DNA from: a virus
IMG/VR virus record: IMGVR_UViG_3300042090_001871
Span: 1-41,006 of that record
Strand: one strand, 5' to 3'
Length of the DNA: 41,006 bases
Part shown: positions 99 to 36,029 of the stretch, piece after piece
Position numbering within the stretch: the stretch's first letter is position 1
Layout: each line of letters starts with the position of its first letter
Position numbers and translations under genes: made by a program
Notes under the pieces: generated by a model
The model's input: the letters and a program-made list of their open reading frames with translations, nothing else
What the model was told of the DNA's origin: nothing
The model's database searches: none

Positions 99-2765
99 TC
101 TTCGATCACTCCTGGAGATATTAGCCTAGTGATTGGCGGTCAAACCTATACAGATTTGTTGATGGATGGGACACTTCAAGGATCTGGAGGGGGAACGGGT
201 ACAATCAATTATGCCACGGGAGCTTTCACGATAGCTGGTGGTGGTACAGATGTTGTCACTGGGACATTCTCCTACTTCCCTGGGCTTCCTGTCATCGGAC
301 TTCAAGATTTTGCGTATATTTCTTCAGCAGGCTTAGCCAATGTTCCAACAATCTATCCATTTTTACTAGCCTTTGACACAGACTATGCTTACCAAGTTAA
401 CCAGTCGACTTCATCTATATTCTTCTATGATGTTAGTTATTACAAGTATACTAATAATCCTGTAATTTGGACAGGGCACGACTATCAACTGTTCTGGACG
501 ACAAATTATCAATCTGCCCTATGGGCTACAAATAATAAGCCAGGATTTAGTTTTAAACCGTTAAGCAATGTAGCAGGGATTTCAGTTACTCAAGTAACCG
601 CAACACAAGTAACTATTACGATTACAGGGCATCAGCTCGTAGTCAATGATGTTATATGGATCAATGAAGTTACTGGAACTATTGCCACAGGATCGGGAGC
701 TACTGCCAATCAAAATATCAATTTACAGACAGGTTATGTAGCTGCTGTTATCGATGCCAATACTATTACTGTTAATTTCGATGGGACAAAAGGCTCAACT
801 CTAGCTAATTTCCAGCCTGGAGCTACAGGAAGCGGAGGAATTGCTCAATATCTCACAAGTGGCGTAATAACAGGTCAAGATGGAATTCGGTGGTATGATG
901 GAGATCCAACTTCTGGAACGGGATTGCCAACCACAACGCTAGTTGGTTGGGTTAATTTTGCTCCTCCACTTACTGGAGCGATTGTTTCCATAGATGATGA
1001 AACACTTGGTAAATATTATTTAGTGGGAGCACTGGCAATTGTTCCTTTCAAAGATCGACTGCTTTTTTTTAGTCCTTGGATACAGACTAGCACTGGAGCC
1101 CCCATTCAATTACAAGATACAGTCATTTGGAGTTGGAATGGGACGCCCTATTATTCATCAGCTACCCCAGTTGCCGAAACCTTTAGTCCTACAGCCTATT
1201 ATGTTGATCAAACAGGGCTTGGTGGGTGGCTTTCAGCAGGTGTTGCGCAGCCCATAAAAACAGTAGCAAACAATGAAGATGTTTTACTAGTAGGTTTCGC
1301 TGGTAGAGGTAGAAAAACTAGGTTTGTATACACAGGTAATGATCTTCAACCATTTCTGTTTTTCAATATTAACTCAGAGCTTCCTTCCGACTCGACATTC
1401 TCATCTGTCGTACTGGATAAAGGAGCAATAGATATTGGAGTCTATGGTATTGCCATGACTGACCAACAATCTTCTCAACGAGTGGATCTTGATATTCCAG
1501 ATTCTGTATTCCAGATTCAAGCGCTGAATAATGGAGTTCTTAGGGTAAATGCTATTAGAGATTTCTTTAAAGAATGGATCTATTTTGCTTATCCAGTGAA
1601 TAGCAGCGCTTGGCGATTCCCGACTCAGACTTTCTTGTTTAACTATCGAGACAATACGTGGGCTGTTCAGTATGAAAACTTCACAGTTCATGGCACATTC
1701 CGTCCACAAATGAAGAAAAGCTGGCTAACCACGGGCTTCCATTCATGGAATACATGGAGAGAGGCTTGGAATTCTGGATCTAGTTCGGCTCTATTCCCTA
1801 ATATCGTGGCAGGAAACCCTCAGGGTTATGTACTAATCAAAGGACAAGGGACTGGGGAATCGATATCTGGAACTATTCAGGCTATTGCAAATAATGCTGG
1901 AGAAACTCAAATCACATCAATCGACCATTGCGTCGCAGTAGGTGACTATCTTTTTATTTCTGGCGTTTTAGGCCTTTTGACTTCCACTATTACTGCGATT
2001 ACGCAAGCCTCTCAAGCCATTATTTCAACTGTAAACACATTCGTTGTTGGAGACTCAGTAACCATTTCCGGTGTTTTAGGGATGACAGAGCTTAATGGAA
2101 ACACATACACCATTGTGGCAGCAACTGGTGCTAACATAACTATCGATGTTAATTCTACTAACTTTACTGCATATATATCGGGAGGAACTGTTACATCGGC
2201 CATCAATGGCTTAATAGGAGCTGTCCGAACCGTCATAGATGCAAATAACTTTGTGATTGATCTTCCAGTTCCCACATTTAGCACAGTATATTTAGGACTT
2301 GGTAAATTCACTCGCCTTTCTCAACCCCTTCTACAAACCAAACAATTCAATCCATACTGGGAACAAGGACGACAACTCAGACTTTCCGTACAGAAGTACT
2401 TAATGGACTTTACGGCCAATGCTCAGGTAACTGTTAATATTTATTTGAGCCAAGATCCAGATGATGCATGGAATAATGTACTCAATAATCCACCTCCAAA
2501 TGGCCTTGTTTATAGCCAGCTGATGTATACTTGTCCAGAATCTACTAATATTGGCCTGACACCTGCTAATACAAACTTGCAAATGCCAACAGCAGAGGGT
2601 CAGTATCAGATTTGGCATAGGTTTAATACTAGTATGATAGGAGATTCAGTACAGGTTGGAATAACGCTCAATGATGCGCAGATGAGGAATTTGACTTATG
2701 CGACGAGTGAGATTACACTCCATGGTATACATTTAACCGTGGATAGGAGTAGTCATTTAGCATGA
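1..2765 (+). CDS. Tail/neck stabilisation-like protein, C-terminal part (gene begins at 40518)
   Basis: This is the downstream part of a 1051-aa virion protein whose start codon is at 40518. Joined across the 98-base overlap, 173 residues precede the methionine at 129. The beta-rich sequence with Trp/Tyr-rich blocks resembles large P22 gp10-like packaged-DNA stabilisation or tail-hub proteins that follow the neck gene in podoviruses. It contains several copies of a short module of the type 'VGDSVTISGVLGM..LNGNTYTI', like the E1 FCCH-type modules often seen in phage tail proteins. Copies lie near 600-790, 1915-2000 and 2020-2190, with another before the junction. The stop at 2763-2765 overlaps the next ATG by 4 bases. 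Role as a virion tail component is well supported; the exact homolog is inferred. Confidence 0.8.
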   Translation, partial: GTATLIESWELLPFNLVAGAGNLITQYTLGATSSITPGDISLVIGGQTYTDLLMDGTLQGSGGGTGTINYATGAFTIAGGGTDVVTGTFSYFPGLPVIGLQDFAYISSAGLANVPTIYPFLLAFDTDYAYQVNQSTSSIFFYDVSYYKYTNNPVIWTGHDYQLFWTTNYQSALWATNNKPGFSFKPLSNVAGISVTQVTATQVTITITGHQLVVNDVIWINEVTGTIATGSGATANQNINLQTGYVAAVIDANTITVNFDGTKGSTLANFQPGATGSGGIAQYLTSGVITGQDGIRWYDGDPTSGTGLPTTTLVGWVNFAPPLTGAIVSIDDETLGKYYLVGALAIVPFKDRLLFFSPWIQTSTGAPIQLQDTVIWSWNGTPYYSSATPVAETFSPTAYYVDQTGLGGWLSAGVAQPIKTVANNEDVLLVGFAGRGRKTRFVYTGNDLQPFLFFNINSELPSDSTFSSVVLDKGAIDIGVYGIAMTDQQSSQRVDLDIPDSVFQIQALNNGVLRVNAIRDFFKEWIYFAYPVNSSAWRFPTQTFLFNYRDNTWAVQYENFTVHGTFRPQMKKSWLTTGFHSWNTWREAWNSGSSSALFPNIVAGNPQGYVLIKGQGTGESISGTIQAIANNAGETQITSIDHCVAVGDYLFISGVLGLLTSTITAITQASQAIISTVNTFVVGDSVTISGVLGMTELNGNTYTIVAATGANITIDVNSTNFTAYISGGTVTSAINGLIGAVRTVIDANNFVIDLPVPTFSTVYLGLGKFTRLSQPLLQTKQFNPYWEQGRQLRLSVQKYLMDFTANAQVTVNIYLSQDPDDAWNNVLNNPPPNGLVYSQLMYTCPESTNIGLTPANTNLQMPTAEGQYQIWHRFNTSMIGDSVQVGITLNDAQMRNLTYATSEITLHGIHLTVDRSSHLA

Positions 2766-3462: not shown

Positions 3463-3526
3463 CATGTCTTCTTTTATATCCCCCTCGAGGCGCTGTTCGT
3501 TTATACTGTCTGAAATAGGAGTGCAA

Positions 3527-4201
3527 ATGAGCAGAAGGAAATATTGTTTAGACGGTCAGATTTTTGGAAAATTGACGGTCATTCGAATGGAAAAAGGTAA
3601 AAACCTTTGTAGGTGTGAGTGTGGAAACGAAAAGCTCATTTTGTCATGCGATTTGATTAGAGGGAAGTATGTTACTTGTGGTTGTGAGAAACATACTATT
3701 TCTAATATTCCTTATGATGATAGATTCAAAAAGAAGCTATATTCTCGAATAAGAATAGATGCCAATGGGTGTTGGAATTGGCTAGGATCTAAAACTAAAG
3801 AAGGATATGGAACTGTGGCATATCGGGGGCGCGCAAAAAAAGCGACTCGAATGTCATGGGTAATGACGTATGGTGAGATTCCAGACGATTTATTAGTGTG
3901 TCATAAATGTGATAACCCCTCTTGCATAAATCCACAGCATTTTTTCTTAGGTACAGATAAAGATAATACGCATGACTCAATTGCTAAGGGAAGAAAACCC
4001 GGTTTTCCAGTTGGACAAGATAGGCCCCAATCTAAGCTTAACGATGAAAAAGTGAAAATGATAAAGATTTTAATTCAAAACGGCGTTAGTGTGAGGAAAA
4101 TAGCCCGTGATTATGGGATGGGCGCTACAACTATACGCCACATAAAAACTGGACGTTGTTGGAAGCATGTTAAAATTGAGGAGGACGAATGTCATCGCTA
4201 A
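3527..4201 (+). CDS. HNH homing-type endonuclease (free-standing)
   Basis: A 224-aa protein. The start at 3527 is preceded by AGGAG at good spacing; an upstream start at 3464 lacks one. Residues 1-60 form a zinc-ribbon-like segment with CRCECG and CGC. Residues about 75-145 are an HNH_3-type nuclease domain: CWNW..., then RMSW, LVCHKCDNPSCINPQHFFLG and the trailing DN. The C-terminus (about 180-215) is a helix-turn-helix (VRKIARDYGMGATTIRHI), typical of DNA targeting in phage homing endonucleases. It interrupts the run of structural genes and overlaps the next gene by 13 bases. It looks like an inserted mobile gene rather than a virion component. Confidence 0.85.
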   Translation: MSRRKYCLDGQIFGKLTVIRMEKGKNLCRCECGNEKLILSCDLIRGKYVTCGCEKHTISNIPYDDRFKKKLYSRIRIDANGCWNWLGSKTKEGYGTVAYRGRAKKATRMSWVMTYGEIPDDLLVCHKCDNPSCINPQHFFLGTDKDNTHDSIAKGRKPGFPVGQDRPQSKLNDEKVKMIKILIQNGVSVRKIARDYGMGATTIRHIKTGRCWKHVKIEEDECHR

Positions 4202-12069: not shown

Positions 12070-13215
12070 CCAACCTCTGCAATTTCATTCTATAGTTGCA
12101 GATCGGACTATCACATACTCTTTCGAGTCTCTAGGGTTTAGTCTCTCAGGCTGTATTTAAACTTGCCCCTTGTTACCCCGTCGGGCTTCCAAGTCAATTA
12201 CCTAAAGTTTATCATCGACTCACTTTTAATCGATGTTAGACTGATTCCAGCGCGTTTACAGTCTAATAACAGGCCCGCTTAAGCCTGCTCAATGGGCATA
12301 AATTTCGAAAAAAGATTATTAAGCCACTGTCTTACGTTGCCTTGATTCGGCTCTATGTCCGAATTCCATGGCGGGTAGTAAAATGTCAAGTTGCCCTCCC
12401 TTAATAAGGTTGATAATTAAAATTTCACCTTACATTAAAGGGGTTATAGGGTCAAGTAGGGGCGATATTAATAGAAAAGAGGTCTAATTGTCTTGCATGG
12501 ATCTTTAAAAGATCACTAACTTGCTTTCGCGTCATATTAAGCGTTTCTGCAATATCTTGATAGGCATATCCTTTTTTTCTCAAATCAACAGCAACAGGTG
12601 CAAGATTATTTCTGATATTGATTAAGCAATCTTGACCGCAGCGTGTCTGTTTCGAATATTTATTTACAAAGAATTTTTTTGAACATATTTTACAAGTTCT
12701 TTCTTCGTTATCTATACCACTAGCTCGTCTTGCAGCAGCTTTACACTTATTGGAGCAAAAGGCTTGGTGGTATACTTTTGTGCGAGCTTTTTTTCCGCAT
12801 TGGGAGCAAGTTATTTCGAACTCTTCTCTTTTTTCCCATCCTAAGATTCCATGTTTTTTATGCCATTCTCTGCCTTCTTTACTTCGATGCCAATCTTTAG
12901 TAAGAGCACGAATTCTTTCAGCATGTTTTCTTTGGGCTTCCAATCTGATTGGATCGCTCATTAATTCATTTGCATGTAAACTTAAATGAATCCGTCCTTC
13001 AAGGATCTCTAAATTTTCTGGAGAGTTATTTGATTTATTGCCATCTTTGTGATGAACATGATAACCCGCTGGAACCGCACCTTTTATATTGCACCACACC
13101 CATTTATGAGCACGAATACGTGGATAGTCAGTAGAAATCCAATAGCCTGTTTTTTTATCTTGGTAAAACTTTCTTCCATAGTGAATTTGATGTTCAATCA
13201 TAGGATAGCATGTTA
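12070..13215 (-). ncRNA. Group I self-splicing intron in the portal gene
   Basis: About 1146 bases, read on the minus strand. P1: exon end GATGTTT (13222-13216) pairs with GAACATC (13195-13189), with a U-G pair at the splice site. P3: CTTTAGG (12207-12201) with CCTAGAG (12135-12129). P4: ACTTG with CAAGT. P7: GACTA (12143-12139) with TAGTC (12110-12106), in the classic R and S sequence contexts. P8: ACTC-GAAA-GAGT (12128-12117). P9: TCTGCAA (12102-12096) with TTGCAGA (12082-12076), then GGTTGG ending in the terminal G at 12070. Splicing there restores the portal frame. An HNH ORF fills the 5' part; the 380 bases 12070-12451 hold the RNA core with further hairpins. No convincing P10 was found. 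Confidence 0.8.
12452..13201 (-). CDS. Intron-encoded HNH homing endonuclease
   Basis: 249 aa from ATG 13201; the frame is open back to 13300 through portal exon 1. Residues about 20-75 carry the HNH domain: RAHKWVWCNIKGAVPAGY, then HVHHKDGNKSNNSPENLE. Two zinc-binding pairs follow (CSQC/CSNKC and CKIC/CGQDC), then a C-terminal helix-turn-helix (YQDIAETLNMTRKQVSDLL). This is the usual make-up of phage intron endonucleases that cut an intronless allele and spread the intron. The start codon lies in the P1 loop and the coding region runs through the guide sequence. No good ribosome-binding site precedes it, so a fusion read from unspliced portal mRNA is possible. Confidence 0.85.
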   Translation of the reverse strand: MIEHQIHYGRKFYQDKKTGYWISTDYPRIRAHKWVWCNIKGAVPAGYHVHHKDGNKSNNSPENLEILEGRIHLSLHANELMSDPIRLEAQRKHAERIRALTKDWHRSKEGREWHKKHGILGWEKREEFEITCSQCGKKARTKVYHQAFCSNKCKAAARRASGIDNEERTCKICSKKFFVNKYSKQTRCGQDCLINIRNNLAPVAVDLRKKGYAYQDIAETLNMTRKQVSDLLKIHARQLDLFSINIAPT

Positions 13216-13300
13216 AAACATCGATGAATTTTTCGTGAAGGGAAAAAGTTAGTTTAGAAGTTGCTTGAAAATCTACTGTTGATATATTTATTCGGATCAT
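13216..13300 (-). CDS. Portal protein, upstream exon (predicted)
   Basis: 28 codons plus one base. The exon begins with ATG at 13300, overlapping the last 47 bases of the large terminase gene. It encodes a helix-like N-terminus (SKLTFSLHEKFIDV). The junction T|CA gives Ser and continues EMTNPAGRC...LFYAGEQ, supplying the N-terminal segment expected before the portal core. No clear ribosome-binding site precedes the ATG, so coupling to terminase translation is likely. The exon rests on the P1 and P9 splice-site predictions and on frame agreement. Confidence 0.65.
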
Positions 13301-14537
13301 GTTTATATGGTTGATATGGAGTTATTTTATGTGTTAAACTATATCTTAAAGCGTCCAAACAATGGTCGTCCTTCTTAATGGGAGCATCCTCTCCTCTCTC
13401 TGATTTTTTAACATCCCACACATATGTTTCTATTTCTTTTATTAAATTTGGACAACTCTCGCAAACAAAGAGATTTCCCTTCGCCATTTCTGAAGTCATA
13501 AACGTGATACCGTCAAAAACATCGTTCTCGGCGTCTATAACCGTGATTCCCCTTTTTCTGAGTTCTACCTTGAACGAAGCTGCGGAAGGGTCAACATACA
13601 CCCCTTTAATCGAATAAGGTTCAAGAAATTGCTGTACATCGTCTGCATATTCGCTATTTGTCTTCTGTCTTCCTTTTTTATGAGAATCCCAGACATATTC
13701 CTTTTCAACCCATCGGCAGATACCTTGTTGAGTTGTATGTCCAGTATTAATTCCTACAAGCTCACAAGCAAAGTTATTGGATACTCCATAATCGATACCG
13801 GCAATCCAATATTGAGCTGCGCGAGGAGGCCTTTTGACTACATGAATATTCTTATCGAAAAAGTCAAATATCGCTCCTTCTGCAAGACACCATATGCCCA
13901 TATAATTGCGTTTATAGAATAGTCCGGAAAGGCTGTTTCTTATCCTGTCTTTGTAATCTTCTGGAACGTATGGATTATCGTCCAAAGTAAAACTGAGAGC
14001 ATAATACTGCTTGTCTCCTCCTTCTGCTTTATCAATCCATTGTTTAATTTTATGCGTAGGATGCGATGGGTTGCATGAACAAAATAGCATTGAATGTGGG
14101 TTCGATAGGCGAGTATCGATCATATCGATGATGCTTTCGGGATATAGAGTAATCTCATCGCAATAACACAAGGAAAAGGTTTTACCTTGTATGGCACCGA
14201 TAGCGCCTTCATCTTTTGCTCCAAGTGTTGAAATCGTCTTGTCCTTAAATTTAAGTTGGCGTTTACCAGGATGCCATGTTAAAAAAGGGTGAAAGATACC
14301 TAAAGGATTGTCAGGAGTATTGGCTTCCATGAGAAGGCGGACAGCATTATGATAGATGGTTTCTTGAGAGTGACCAATCATCCATATTTGACTGTCAGGA
14401 CAATTATTAACAGCCTGCATGAATCTAAACAGGGTACTGACAGTCTTTCCAGATCGTACCGAACCATGAGCAATATTGATCTTTTTTGTGGAATCAAGGA
14501 TAAACTCCATTTGACGTGGTGCAAGTAAATTTTGCAT
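13254..14537 (-). CDS. terL: Terminase large subunit
   Basis: A 427-aa packaging motor and nuclease. The ATPase domain shows Walker A GSVRSGKT (residues 25-32), a Walker B-like FSLCYCDEITLYPE, and the coupling motif CSCNPSHPTH. The nuclease domain has IAGIDYGVSNNF, GVYVDPSAASF and a C-terminal DDHCLDALRYSL, the expected RuvC-like acidic residues. Length and motifs match PBSX-type large terminases. It starts only 14 bases from a divergent gene at 14552 and shows no strong ribosome-binding site. The small subunit gene lies 19 kb away on the other strand. Confidence 0.95.
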   Translation of the reverse strand: MQNLLAPRQMEFILDSTKKINIAHGSVRSGKTVSTLFRFMQAVNNCPDSQIWMIGHSQETIYHNAVRLLMEANTPDNPLGIFHPFLTWHPGKRQLKFKDKTISTLGAKDEGAIGAIQGKTFSLCYCDEITLYPESIIDMIDTRLSNPHSMLFCSCNPSHPTHKIKQWIDKAEGGDKQYYALSFTLDDNPYVPEDYKDRIRNSLSGLFYKRNYMGIWCLAEGAIFDFFDKNIHVVKRPPRAAQYWIAGIDYGVSNNFACELVGINTGHTTQQGICRWVEKEYVWDSHKKGRQKTNSEYADDVQQFLEPYSIKGVYVDPSAASFKVELRKRGITVIDAENDVFDGITFMTSEMAKGNLFVCESCPNLIKEIETYVWDVKKSERGEDAPIKKDDHCLDALRYSLTHKITPYQPYKHDPNKYINSRFSSNF

Positions 14538-34501: not shown

Positions 34502-34696
34502 ATGATGGATAAAGTTTACGAAGATGATATCATAACAATTTATGCCAATGACCACGAAATACGCAAAGACTATAAAGCAGGTGGTCGGATAACGAGCCTA
34601 ATGTATAAAGAATTTAAAAGCGAAATCGCCGCATTGGTGGCCGAACAAAACAAAAGCAAATCACCGGAGGTTCCTGGCGGGCGTGAAGATGTTTAG
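34502..34696 (+). CDS. Hypothetical small protein
   Basis: A 64-aa protein. The start at 34502 follows GGAGGGG. It reads MMDKVYEDDIITIYANDHEIRK with a helical C-terminal half (KEFKSEIAALVAEQNKSK). The last 35 bases overlap a tRNA-like element, which is unusual. Possibly a small regulatory or packaging accessory; no family recognised. Confidence 0.5.
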   Translation: MMDKVYEDDIITIYANDHEIRKDYKAGGRITSLMYKEFKSEIAALVAEQNKSKSPEVPGGREDV

Positions 34697-34730
34697 GCAT
34701 TTTCAGTGGGGTTCGATTCCCCTTCTGGTG
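34662..34730 (+). other. tRNA-like element, possibly a degenerate tRNA
   Basis: CACCGGA (34662-34668) pairs with TCTGGTG (34724-34730) as a 7-bp acceptor stem. A four-pair T-stem GGGG/CCCC encloses a canonical loop TTCGATT (34712-34718). A hairpin in the anticodon position has a 6-base loop (34692-34697) and the D-arm is poor. No CCA is encoded. The 69-base size is right. This may be a decayed tRNA, a captured tRNA 3' end (attachment-site type), or chance. Confidence 0.3.
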
Positions 34731-34793
34731 CGCTTGATGATAAAAAATGAACCAATTTCGCTACGTCTGCCCACATTGTAACCGAACCTCCTA

Positions 34794-34822
34794 TTGACTC
34801 TAAATAAATCATTATATATATC
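34794..34822 (+). promoter_or_regulatory. Promoter of the major capsid operon
   Basis: TTGACT at 34794-34799 and TATATC at 34817-34822 are 17 bases apart. An overlapping TATATA at 34815 is a second choice for the -10. Transcription would start near 34829 and give a leader of about 230 bases before the capsid ATG at 35061. The 364-base gap 34697-35060 contains the tRNA-like 3' end, a 16-codon fragment (34747-34797), this promoter and the structured leader. Confidence 0.6.
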
Positions 34823-34848
34823 CCAAATTACGGTAGCAACGTTATAGC

Positions 34849-35035
34849 TATGACGAGTCTAGGAACGCTATAGGTTTCGACTTATAGTCTGCAGATTTCC
34901 CCTAGAAGCGCCATTTTCGTTGGCAACGTAAGGCCACATTCGCTGAGTTGCGTTACGCTCAACCGATGTCATTGAAAACGGACTGTAGTAGGTCTGGGAT
35001 ATAGAGTCCCTTCGTCCACCGATCAATACGTCATA
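34849..35035 (+). ncRNA. Candidate structured RNA in the capsid leader
   Basis: A multi-branched fold closed by TATGACG (34849-34855) with CGTCATA (35029-35035), 7 bp. Inside: TCTAGG (34858-34863) with CCTAGA (34901-34906), holding the hairpin CTATAGG/CTTATAG (34868-34887); GCCA/TGGC (34910-34924); GTTG/CAAC (34947-34963); GGACT (34980-34984) with AGTCC (35005-35009). It is not a tmRNA and is too short around the last stem for a group I core. It could be a regulatory leader or a packaging RNA. Hand-folded only. Confidence 0.45.
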
Positions 35036-35060
35036 AACTTTCAACCATTTTAGGTTTGAA

Positions 35061-36029
35061 ATGTCTATTACGACAACTGGTAATTTAGGCCCGTTGATTC
35101 TCCAGAGCTTAGCTCCTGCGATGCTTTACGTGCCTACTCCTACCATGAACTATATTACAATTTGCGACAAAGTCAGCATGCCATCTAACGGTGGTACAAC
35201 TTGCCGCTTTATGCGCCCACGCGCACTACAACCGCCTACCATTCAACTTGGTAACAGCGGTATTGATCCTCCAGCACAAGTCCCACAACGGGACATCATC
35301 GACGCTCAAATGGCGTTCTTTGGTACTGGTTGCATCATTAACGAACAAGTAATTCTTCAAGACCAAGAAGGCGTTCTCGCTTGGGTATCTGAGCGTCTCG
35401 CCGTTGCTATGCGTCAAGCTGAAGACTTAATCCTCCGTGACTACATTATATCGGCAGCGTCTGATATCAATGCTGGCGGCGGATCTAACGGAGACAACCC
35501 AACTAACCTTGGACTCTCTGATTTCAGCTTAGTTGCTACAACTCTTGATACCAACAACGCCTACAAATTTATGTCGGGTATTGAGGGGATGGATAGATTT
35601 GGTACTGGCCCTATTCGTTCTTCTTATTTCATGTTGAGCTCTACCGAGCTTCAATCTGACTTTGATGGACTCGTAGGATCTGGTGTACTCAACAATTGGA
35701 ACTATCCGACAAATGCGTCGGCTCTTCCTTCAGAATGGGGATCGGTGTTCAACCTCCGTATTCTTACATCTTCTGAAGCTCCAGTTGCTAGAGGCGCTTC
35801 TGCTAACGGAAACGATGTTTATTACAACACTGTTACCGGTAAACAAGGCGTTACCCACATCAACCAAGACGGATATTCGATGAACCTTATTTATCGCGAT
35901 CCTTATTATTCTGGCATGCTTGCTCAGAACGCGACACTCGCTGTCAAGTTCGCACAAGCACAAGCCCTAACTCAAGATACGGCTGTCCGCAATTTACTTT
36001 GCACACGCCTATCTAACCTGGGGGTGTAA
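35061..36029 (+). CDS. Major capsid protein (N4-gp56-like)
   Basis: A 322-aa protein forming the head shell. The N-terminal region PTPTMNYITICDKVSMPSNGG, then TCRFMRPRAL, the central WVSERLAVAMRQAEDLILRDYI, and the C-terminal YYNTVTGKQGVTHINQDGYSM and YYSGMLAQNATLAVKFA match the N4 gp56 family of coat proteins. It shows an HK97-type composition. AGG lies six bases upstream. It has a dedicated promoter and a long structured leader. The scaffold is on the opposite strand, 26 kb away by window coordinates (about 14 kb around the circle). Confidence 0.85.
   Translation: MSITTTGNLGPLILQSLAPAMLYVPTPTMNYITICDKVSMPSNGGTTCRFMRPRALQPPTIQLGNSGIDPPAQVPQRDIIDAQMAFFGTGCIINEQVILQDQEGVLAWVSERLAVAMRQAEDLILRDYIISAASDINAGGGSNGDNPTNLGLSDFSLVATTLDTNNAYKFMSGIEGMDRFGTGPIRSSYFMLSSTELQSDFDGLVGSGVLNNWNYPTNASALPSEWGSVFNLRILTSSEAPVARGASANGNDVYYNTVTGKQGVTHINQDGYSMNLIYRDPYYSGMLAQNATLAVKFAQAQALTQDTAVRNLLCTRLSNLGV

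Follow-up and report, generated by a model that had tools for sequence, protein, structure and literature searches.

The leader of the major capsid gene in the viral sequence analyzed here, IMG/VR virus record IMGVR_UViG_3300042090_001871 (41,006 bases, taken whole and hereafter called the window), belongs to a real, apparently undescribed family of structured RNAs that has strong comparative support. Comparison with related phages shows an RNA structure that is conserved, lies on the plus strand and is linked to the start of the capsid gene. Its core consists of a stem, P1, that encloses an H-type pseudoknot, and further small H-type pseudoknots occupy the region between the promoter-like sequence and the core (Table 1). 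In the loci examined, the family has so far been seen only before one gene, that of the capsid, in a widespread group of uncultured phages for which IMG/VR contains no fewer than 239 stretches with the capsid gene. With tandem pseudoknots that apparently begin where an abundant phage mRNA itself begins, such a leader would be a natural mRNA stabilizer or a translational switch.

Table 1. Elements of the capsid leader and flanking features, in positions of the window.
Feature	Position	Strand	Basis
Promoter-like hexamers TTGACT and TATATC, spacer 17	34794-34799, 34817-34822	+	sequence; placement supported by relatives
First pseudoknot unit: S1 34830-34832/34840-34842, S2 34834-34837/34847-34850	34830-34850	+	by eye; missed by motif scan; no close homolog seen
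Window-specific nested hairpins: 34858-34863/34901-34906, 34868-34874/34881-34887	34858-34906	+	in fold
Pseudoknot unit: S1 34918-34920/34926-34928, S2 34921-34924/34933-34936	34918-34936	+	motif scan; similar in L004, L028, L166 (by eye)
Pseudoknot unit: S1 34941-34943/34950-34952, S2 34944-34947/34958-34961	34941-34961	+	motif scan; similar in L004, L028, L166 (by eye)
Core	34965-35032	+	covariance model R1, 52 bits, E 2.7e-10 (window in training set); pair counts; fold
Core P1	34965-34969/35028-35032 and 34971-34975/35023-35027	+	
Core S1	34980-34983 and 34985 with 35013-35017	+	
Core S2 (crossing)	34991-34993/35018-35020	+	
Extra hairpin in core loop	34996-34999/35007-35010	+	
Ribosome-site hairpin: 35039-35046/35053-35061	35039-35061	+	fold; relatives
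Major capsid gene, N4-gp56 family	35061-36029	+	TIGR04387, 64.8 bits (cut-off 60); phrog_1357

The capsid locus

The capsid gene starts at 35061, and a promoter-like pair of hexamers lies about 230 bases upstream. A reading of this DNA from its letters alone (hereafter the sequence-only reading) had proposed a sigma70-type promoter at 34794-34822 that gives the gene a 230-base leader. The hexamers and their spacing are indeed present, and relatives support the placement, but the pair is absent from the output of an automated promoter scan of the window, and the assignment of the window promoter therefore rests on the relatives. The further claims that the leader harbors no ORF and that the downstream gene encodes the major capsid protein were borne out by an ORF search of the window, in which none of at least 80 aa covered the leader, and by the family match of the gene. 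A tRNA-like stretch at 34661-34731 scored 18.8 bits with the tRNA-Sec model, far under the cut-off of 47; its 3' part is similar to phage tRNA-Asp genes (E 0.1), and ARAGORN found no tRNA there. It sits upstream of the promoter-like sequence and was rejected as a part of the leader.

Structure and covariation of the core

A capsid search of viral contigs yielded 239 relatives, 80 of which were kept in the first scan. The leader set comprised 129 sequences, reduced to 93 by removal of those that exceeded 90% identity over their final 200 nt or fell short of 60 nt. Seventeen capsid proteins aligned with that of the window are 84-93% identical to it, and the letters of the leaders vary widely. 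Most relatives' leaders have in common a core directly before the start codon (e.g., GATATGATCGAGAACTGACGTAACTAGGCTCGTCTACCGATCATCATATC). A covariance model of the core, R1, matched 86 of 94 capsid sources, once each, including 27 that were not in its training set; L024 and L064 fit it best.

P1 was initially placed at columns 8-10 and 64-66 of alignment A3; this placement was dropped after a tree test had indicated the pair 14-66, and the stem was then corrected. A3 was fitted to the covariance model, and the corrected P1 was scored on the alignment that prompted it, so that the following numbers lean towards the structure: over 13 nested pairs and 86 rows, 92.3% of the cells are paired, compared with 85.4% after shuffling, and 58 cells are changed on both sides, compared with 8.3, with two-sided change at 11 pairs; none of 500 shuffles was as high on any measure. 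An unfitted MAFFT alignment, A1, gave 44 two-sided cells against 10.1; its 59 rows leave out loci with a misread guide pattern (10 named), without a pattern match or with a duplicate core. Pair 14-66 is kept in 86 of 86 rows as A-U, C-G, G-C or U-G, and pair 21-58 in 85 of 85 as A-U, G-C or C-G. In all 86 rows, two pairs of the crossing stem S2 are Watson-Crick, the outer one being G-C in 63, C-G in 20 and A-U in three. When its 3' strands were permuted, the count fell to 53 on average and 66 at most; on 54 distinct combinations it was 54 against at most 40, any of three offsets being allowed in real and permuted data alike.

The sequence-only reading had proposed looking for covariation among homologs, and it is present. 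A tree-based count found 23 compensatory double changes where 3.7 were expected (maximum 10) and 42 broken pairs where 81 were expected (minimum 64), neither value being reached in any of 500 simulations. In a stricter test over all column pairs, only 21-58 fell under an E of 0.05; 14-66 stood at 0.125 and the others at about 1 or above. RNAalifold predicted no pairs on the raw alignment A1. U-G pairs are found 15 times at 4-73 and 14 times at 22-57; because they would be A-C on the other strand, they place the RNA on the plus strand, and a DNA palindrome was rejected on the same pairs. Letters GUA and UCG are nearly invariant in the core pseudoknot. A mini-ORF in the core, AUG AUC GAG AAC UGA, was rejected by eye, since its stop is lost in many relatives.

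The structure initially drawn over 34849-35035 did not withstand this comparison. Its 7-bp closing stem, which was to span 187 bases, is present as letters only (34849-34855/35029-35035). No equivalent was found in the five relatives examined (L003, L004, L028, L054, and L057). In relatives, the 3' strand of the drawn stem forms P1 with 34965-34969, so that the two helices compete, and P1 prevails in folds of the core as well as of the entire leader; the 7-bp stem was therefore rejected. The interval had also been expected to fold at an energy lower than shuffled controls, but it reached -48.9 kcal/mol against -47.1 (z -0.42, with 62 of 200 shuffles as good), and the whole leader gave a z of -0.48. 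The energy z-score was set aside as a test, because pseudoknots are not modeled by the folding, which renders it uninformative here; used as the sequence-only reading had intended, it leads to a wrong refutation of the structured RNA. Single-sequence folding energy can thus overlook a conserved pseudoknotted RNA. That reading was right that an unclassified structured RNA lies in the capsid leader, as is well supported by covariation, by the absence of an Rfam match and by the position before capsid genes in the loci examined, and wrong about the closing stem.

Upstream pseudoknot units

The small pseudoknots between promoter and core occur in two mirror forms, UUCGC...GCGUUA and GCGUUA...UUCGC; they are alike in kind, and their stems differ between phages. 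As judged by eye, the units have common loop letters but differing stems, also in L129, a contig from a MAG labelled Simkania, in which several units of the form GACGUA...CGUC stand in a row. In the unit adjacent to the core, the arms pair over at least 4 bp in 66 of 70 leaders, forming 44 distinct stems, compared with 49% when arms are swapped between leaders (at most 63% in 1000 permutations). The arms of the next unit pair in 29 of 41 leaders, compared with 28% when swapped (at most 51%). These samples, and the 83 leaders used below for the spacing to the -10 box, are those of the 93 in which the guide pattern was found.

Generic pseudoknots amount to 2.03 per 190 nt in 92 full-length leaders vs. 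0.67 in dinucleotide shuffles, and the window itself has no such excess (1 vs. 1.05 shuffled). By motif, leaders contain 8.5 units per kb, compared with 0.11 per kb for the window when both of its strands are counted, the latter figure including the window's own two leader units (34918-34936, 34941-34960). The nested hairpins at 34858-34906 are absent from L003, L004, and L028 (by eye) and are without comparative support.

Ends of the leader and linkage to the capsid gene

Of 83 leaders, 40 have the first pseudoknot 5-6 bases downstream of the best-scoring -10 box, compared with 0 of 83 shuffled controls; in the other 43, this spacing was not seen with simple scoring. A distance of 5-6 bases past the -10 box is about where transcription begins, and we infer from the sequences that transcription probably starts at the first pseudoknot or a few bases from it. 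At the downstream end, 77 of 93 leaders have a hairpin of at least 5 bp in the 32-base stretch that leads up to and includes the start codon, against 40% in single-base shuffles, and this hairpin overlaps the ribosome-binding site. The core precedes the capsid start by 18-237 nt (median 24), all 86 matches of R1 lie within 340 bases before a capsid start, and a terminator scan of the window leader found no terminator between core and gene.

Loci matched by R1 had mostly been gathered by their capsid, and their position before that gene is thus partly by construction. An exact-pattern scan of the viral collection found the core in 32 contigs, with a capsid gene downstream in 31, the remaining contig (L100) ending 29 bases past the motif; in a second pattern scan, the capsid gene followed in 12 of 12 contigs. 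Of the 44 contigs from both scans, 43 have the core ahead of a capsid gene and the last one ends before such a gene could be reached, many of these contigs having already been gathered by capsid. Fifty whole phage records contain one strong core match each; second matches occur in five of them, reach at most 19.4 bits, and the best has surroundings unlike a leader (by eye). No recognizable copy of the core was seen by eye upstream of capsid relatives at 54, 38, and 23% identity, with only about 54 upstream bases judged for the 38% relative and only a 12-base gap to the preceding gene in the 23% relative.

Comparison with known RNAs

The sequence-only reading had proposed a search of Rfam with cmscan, and this yielded no family for the leader: no match to Rfam 15 reached gathering in the window, and up to an E of 10 the leader region gave only chance-level ones. 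Four relatives (L101, L110, L118, and L168) searched up to the same E gave one match, to mir-873 (19.3 bits against a cut-off of 95), and 23 further loci searched at gathering gave tRNAs only. No description of the leader was found in the open-access papers searched.

The nearest architecture is that of the STAXI RNA (RF01728), which is described as two or three tandem copies of a pseudoknot near genes of DNA-binding or DNA-handling proteins (PMC2864571). Both RNAs are tandem pseudoknots, UUCG occurs in the STAXI repeats, and the function of STAXI is given there as unknown; the capsid leaders do show the tandem repetition on which its definition rests, but STAXI has other consensus letters and lies near DNA-handling genes (PMC2864571), in contrast to the capsid gene here. 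The STAXI cut-off of 40.5 bits was exceeded in none of the 18 records searched, window included, and there was no match on the leader. Membership was rejected, as score and gene context both fail. Two sub-threshold STAXI matches were found in the 18 records, neither at a capsid leader. The better one, at 1501-1623 (-) of L172 (29.2 bits, E 0.001), lies apparently opposite a reading frame that is upstream of a terminase gene, and is probably due to chance.

Two other systems share some of these traits. The gene 32 operator of T4 and RB69 likewise places a pseudoknot ahead of the ribosome-binding site, in the 5' leader of a phage mRNA that is abundant (PMC535899). That operator has a single pseudoknot, after which comes a UUAAA stretch with less structure, and belongs to the gene of a single-strand-binding protein, whereas the capsid leader has several pseudoknots, a stem-enclosed core, a hairpin at the ribosome-binding site and an N4-gp56 capsid gene. 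The type III antitoxin RNAs ToxI and CptI are also tandem H-type pseudoknots upstream of a gene; they repeat a single sequence, carry a terminator and precede an endoribonuclease toxin gene (PMC5086642), whereas the units of the capsid leaders, as judged by eye, have differing stems, the window leader yielded no terminator and a capsid gene follows.

Possible functions of the leader

Among the roles first suggested, a regulatory leader is the best reading, and coat-protein feedback is one of its two main options. The other, which we tentatively favor, is a cis-acting 5' leader whose 5'-terminal pseudoknots protect the capsid mRNA and whose core and hairpin set ribosome access. Transcription would start at or near the first H-type pseudoknot, leaving almost no single-stranded 5' end, and the message would then run through the row of pseudoknots, the stem-enclosed core pseudoknot and the hairpin over the ribosome-binding site. 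The 5'-terminal pseudoknots might fold while being made and shield the message from 5'-end-dependent decay, which involves a pyrophosphohydrolase plus RNase E or RNase J. A message structured from about its first base would therefore be protected, which could give the most needed structural mRNA a long life, and the core and ribosome-site hairpin would set translation initiation. Stem-loop stabilizers such as that of ompA likewise have their structure at the extreme 5' terminus of a message that is abundant, a position deduced here from the predicted -10 spacing, but they are simple hairpins of single genes and not a conserved pseudoknot family. A 5'-terminal stem-loop can reportedly stabilize mRNA in E. 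coli (works cited in PMC3997798). Protection is consistent with the conserved core and upstream units, the first unit at the likely transcription start, the frequent ribosome-site hairpin and the tight linkage of the leader to the capsid gene. It fits less well with the 43 leaders that lack the 5-6 base spacing, with the window, which has no generic pseudoknot excess and whose promoter the automated scan missed, and with the unit signature GCGUUA / UUCGC, which recurs beyond the apparent need of pure protection.

A shared signature with changing stems would suit repeated binding by one protein, as in the main rival, a translational operator, which is possible, if somewhat less probable than protection, and comes close behind it. 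The capsid or another phage protein would bind the repeated pseudoknots, reach the ribosome-binding hairpin and stop capsid synthesis when free protein accumulates. The short distance from core to start, the hairpin and the finding of the leader only before the capsid gene in the loci examined point the same way, and there is a precedent in the T4 single-strand-binding protein gp32, which represses translation of its own mRNA (PMC535899). The capsid relatives without a recognizable copy argue against an operator, in that the capsid fold alone does not require the leader. The recurring signature favors the operator and the placement at the start favors protection; both may hold. We regard as rather unlikely a multivalent RNA platform through which a dsDNA phage would match the synthesis of capsid protein to the assembly of its shell, and in which each pseudoknot would bind capsid protein, the array would count free subunits and full occupancy would close the ribosome-site hairpin. 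If such a platform existed and the 5' end were protected as well, the capsid message would have its stabilizer and its off-switch in a single leader. Tandem pseudoknots at the likely start of the message would make the setting of capsid dosage in a dsDNA phage directly testable with reporters.

Other explanations have little to recommend them. The size and complexity of the leader had led the sequence-only reading to suggest a small RNA, possibly for packaging, which would be processed from the capsid mRNA or end before it; this is improbable and without support, given that no terminator was found in the window leader and that the core lies close before the start codon and is followed by the ribosome-site hairpin. 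A ligand-sensing riboswitch, with the core as aptamer and the hairpin as switch, would account for a compact pseudoknot, its GUA and UCG letters almost invariant, ahead of that hairpin, but the single downstream gene is a structural one in all cases examined and the upstream tandem units would be left unexplained, which makes it, by a little, more improbable still. That there is no RNA at all, but a DNA-level repeat or chance helices, is largely refuted and hardly credible: the window energy alone is not significant and RNAalifold found no pairs on the raw alignment, but the compensatory changes are tree-aware, the U-G pairs are sensible on one strand only, one unit has 44 distinct complementary stems and the crossing pairs are kept throughout.

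Variant leaders and other observations

The core match is missing in eight of the 94 sources (L017, L042, L060, L063, L067, L070, L081, and L129). Four of them (L042, L060, L063, and L070) have a variant core, GGCGUAA..GUCC..CGCC..GGUCA, before the capsid gene, with the same kind of pseudoknot and lacking the P1 stem that the main form has; it was also seen by eye in L153, L155, and L158. By eye, the core of L017 has diverged, and L129 has tandem units and no P1; L067 yielded no usable leader, and L081 was left unclassified.

Six MAG contigs (L126-L131) carry capsid relatives. Their labels (Nitrospiraceae, Chlamydiia, Patescibacteria, Simkania, Pseudomonadota, and Peregrinibacteria) conflict and so give no host, binning errors being likely.

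The capsid gene of the window is uninterrupted, in contrast to those of many relatives: in 43 of 168 loci (including L071-L073, L083, L085, L104, L116, L119, L130, L154-L156, L158, L161, and L163), it is interrupted by between one and five insertions, each some 200 to 1,700 bases long, which occupy many sites. Some of these insertions resemble group I introns by eye, and that of L072 had no Rfam match at an E of up to 1. HNH homing endonucleases are often linked to introns, and the window carries two HNH endonuclease genes of such a kind (PF13392), at 3464-4201 (+) and 12452-13300 (-), the latter adjoining the terminase gene at 13254-14537.
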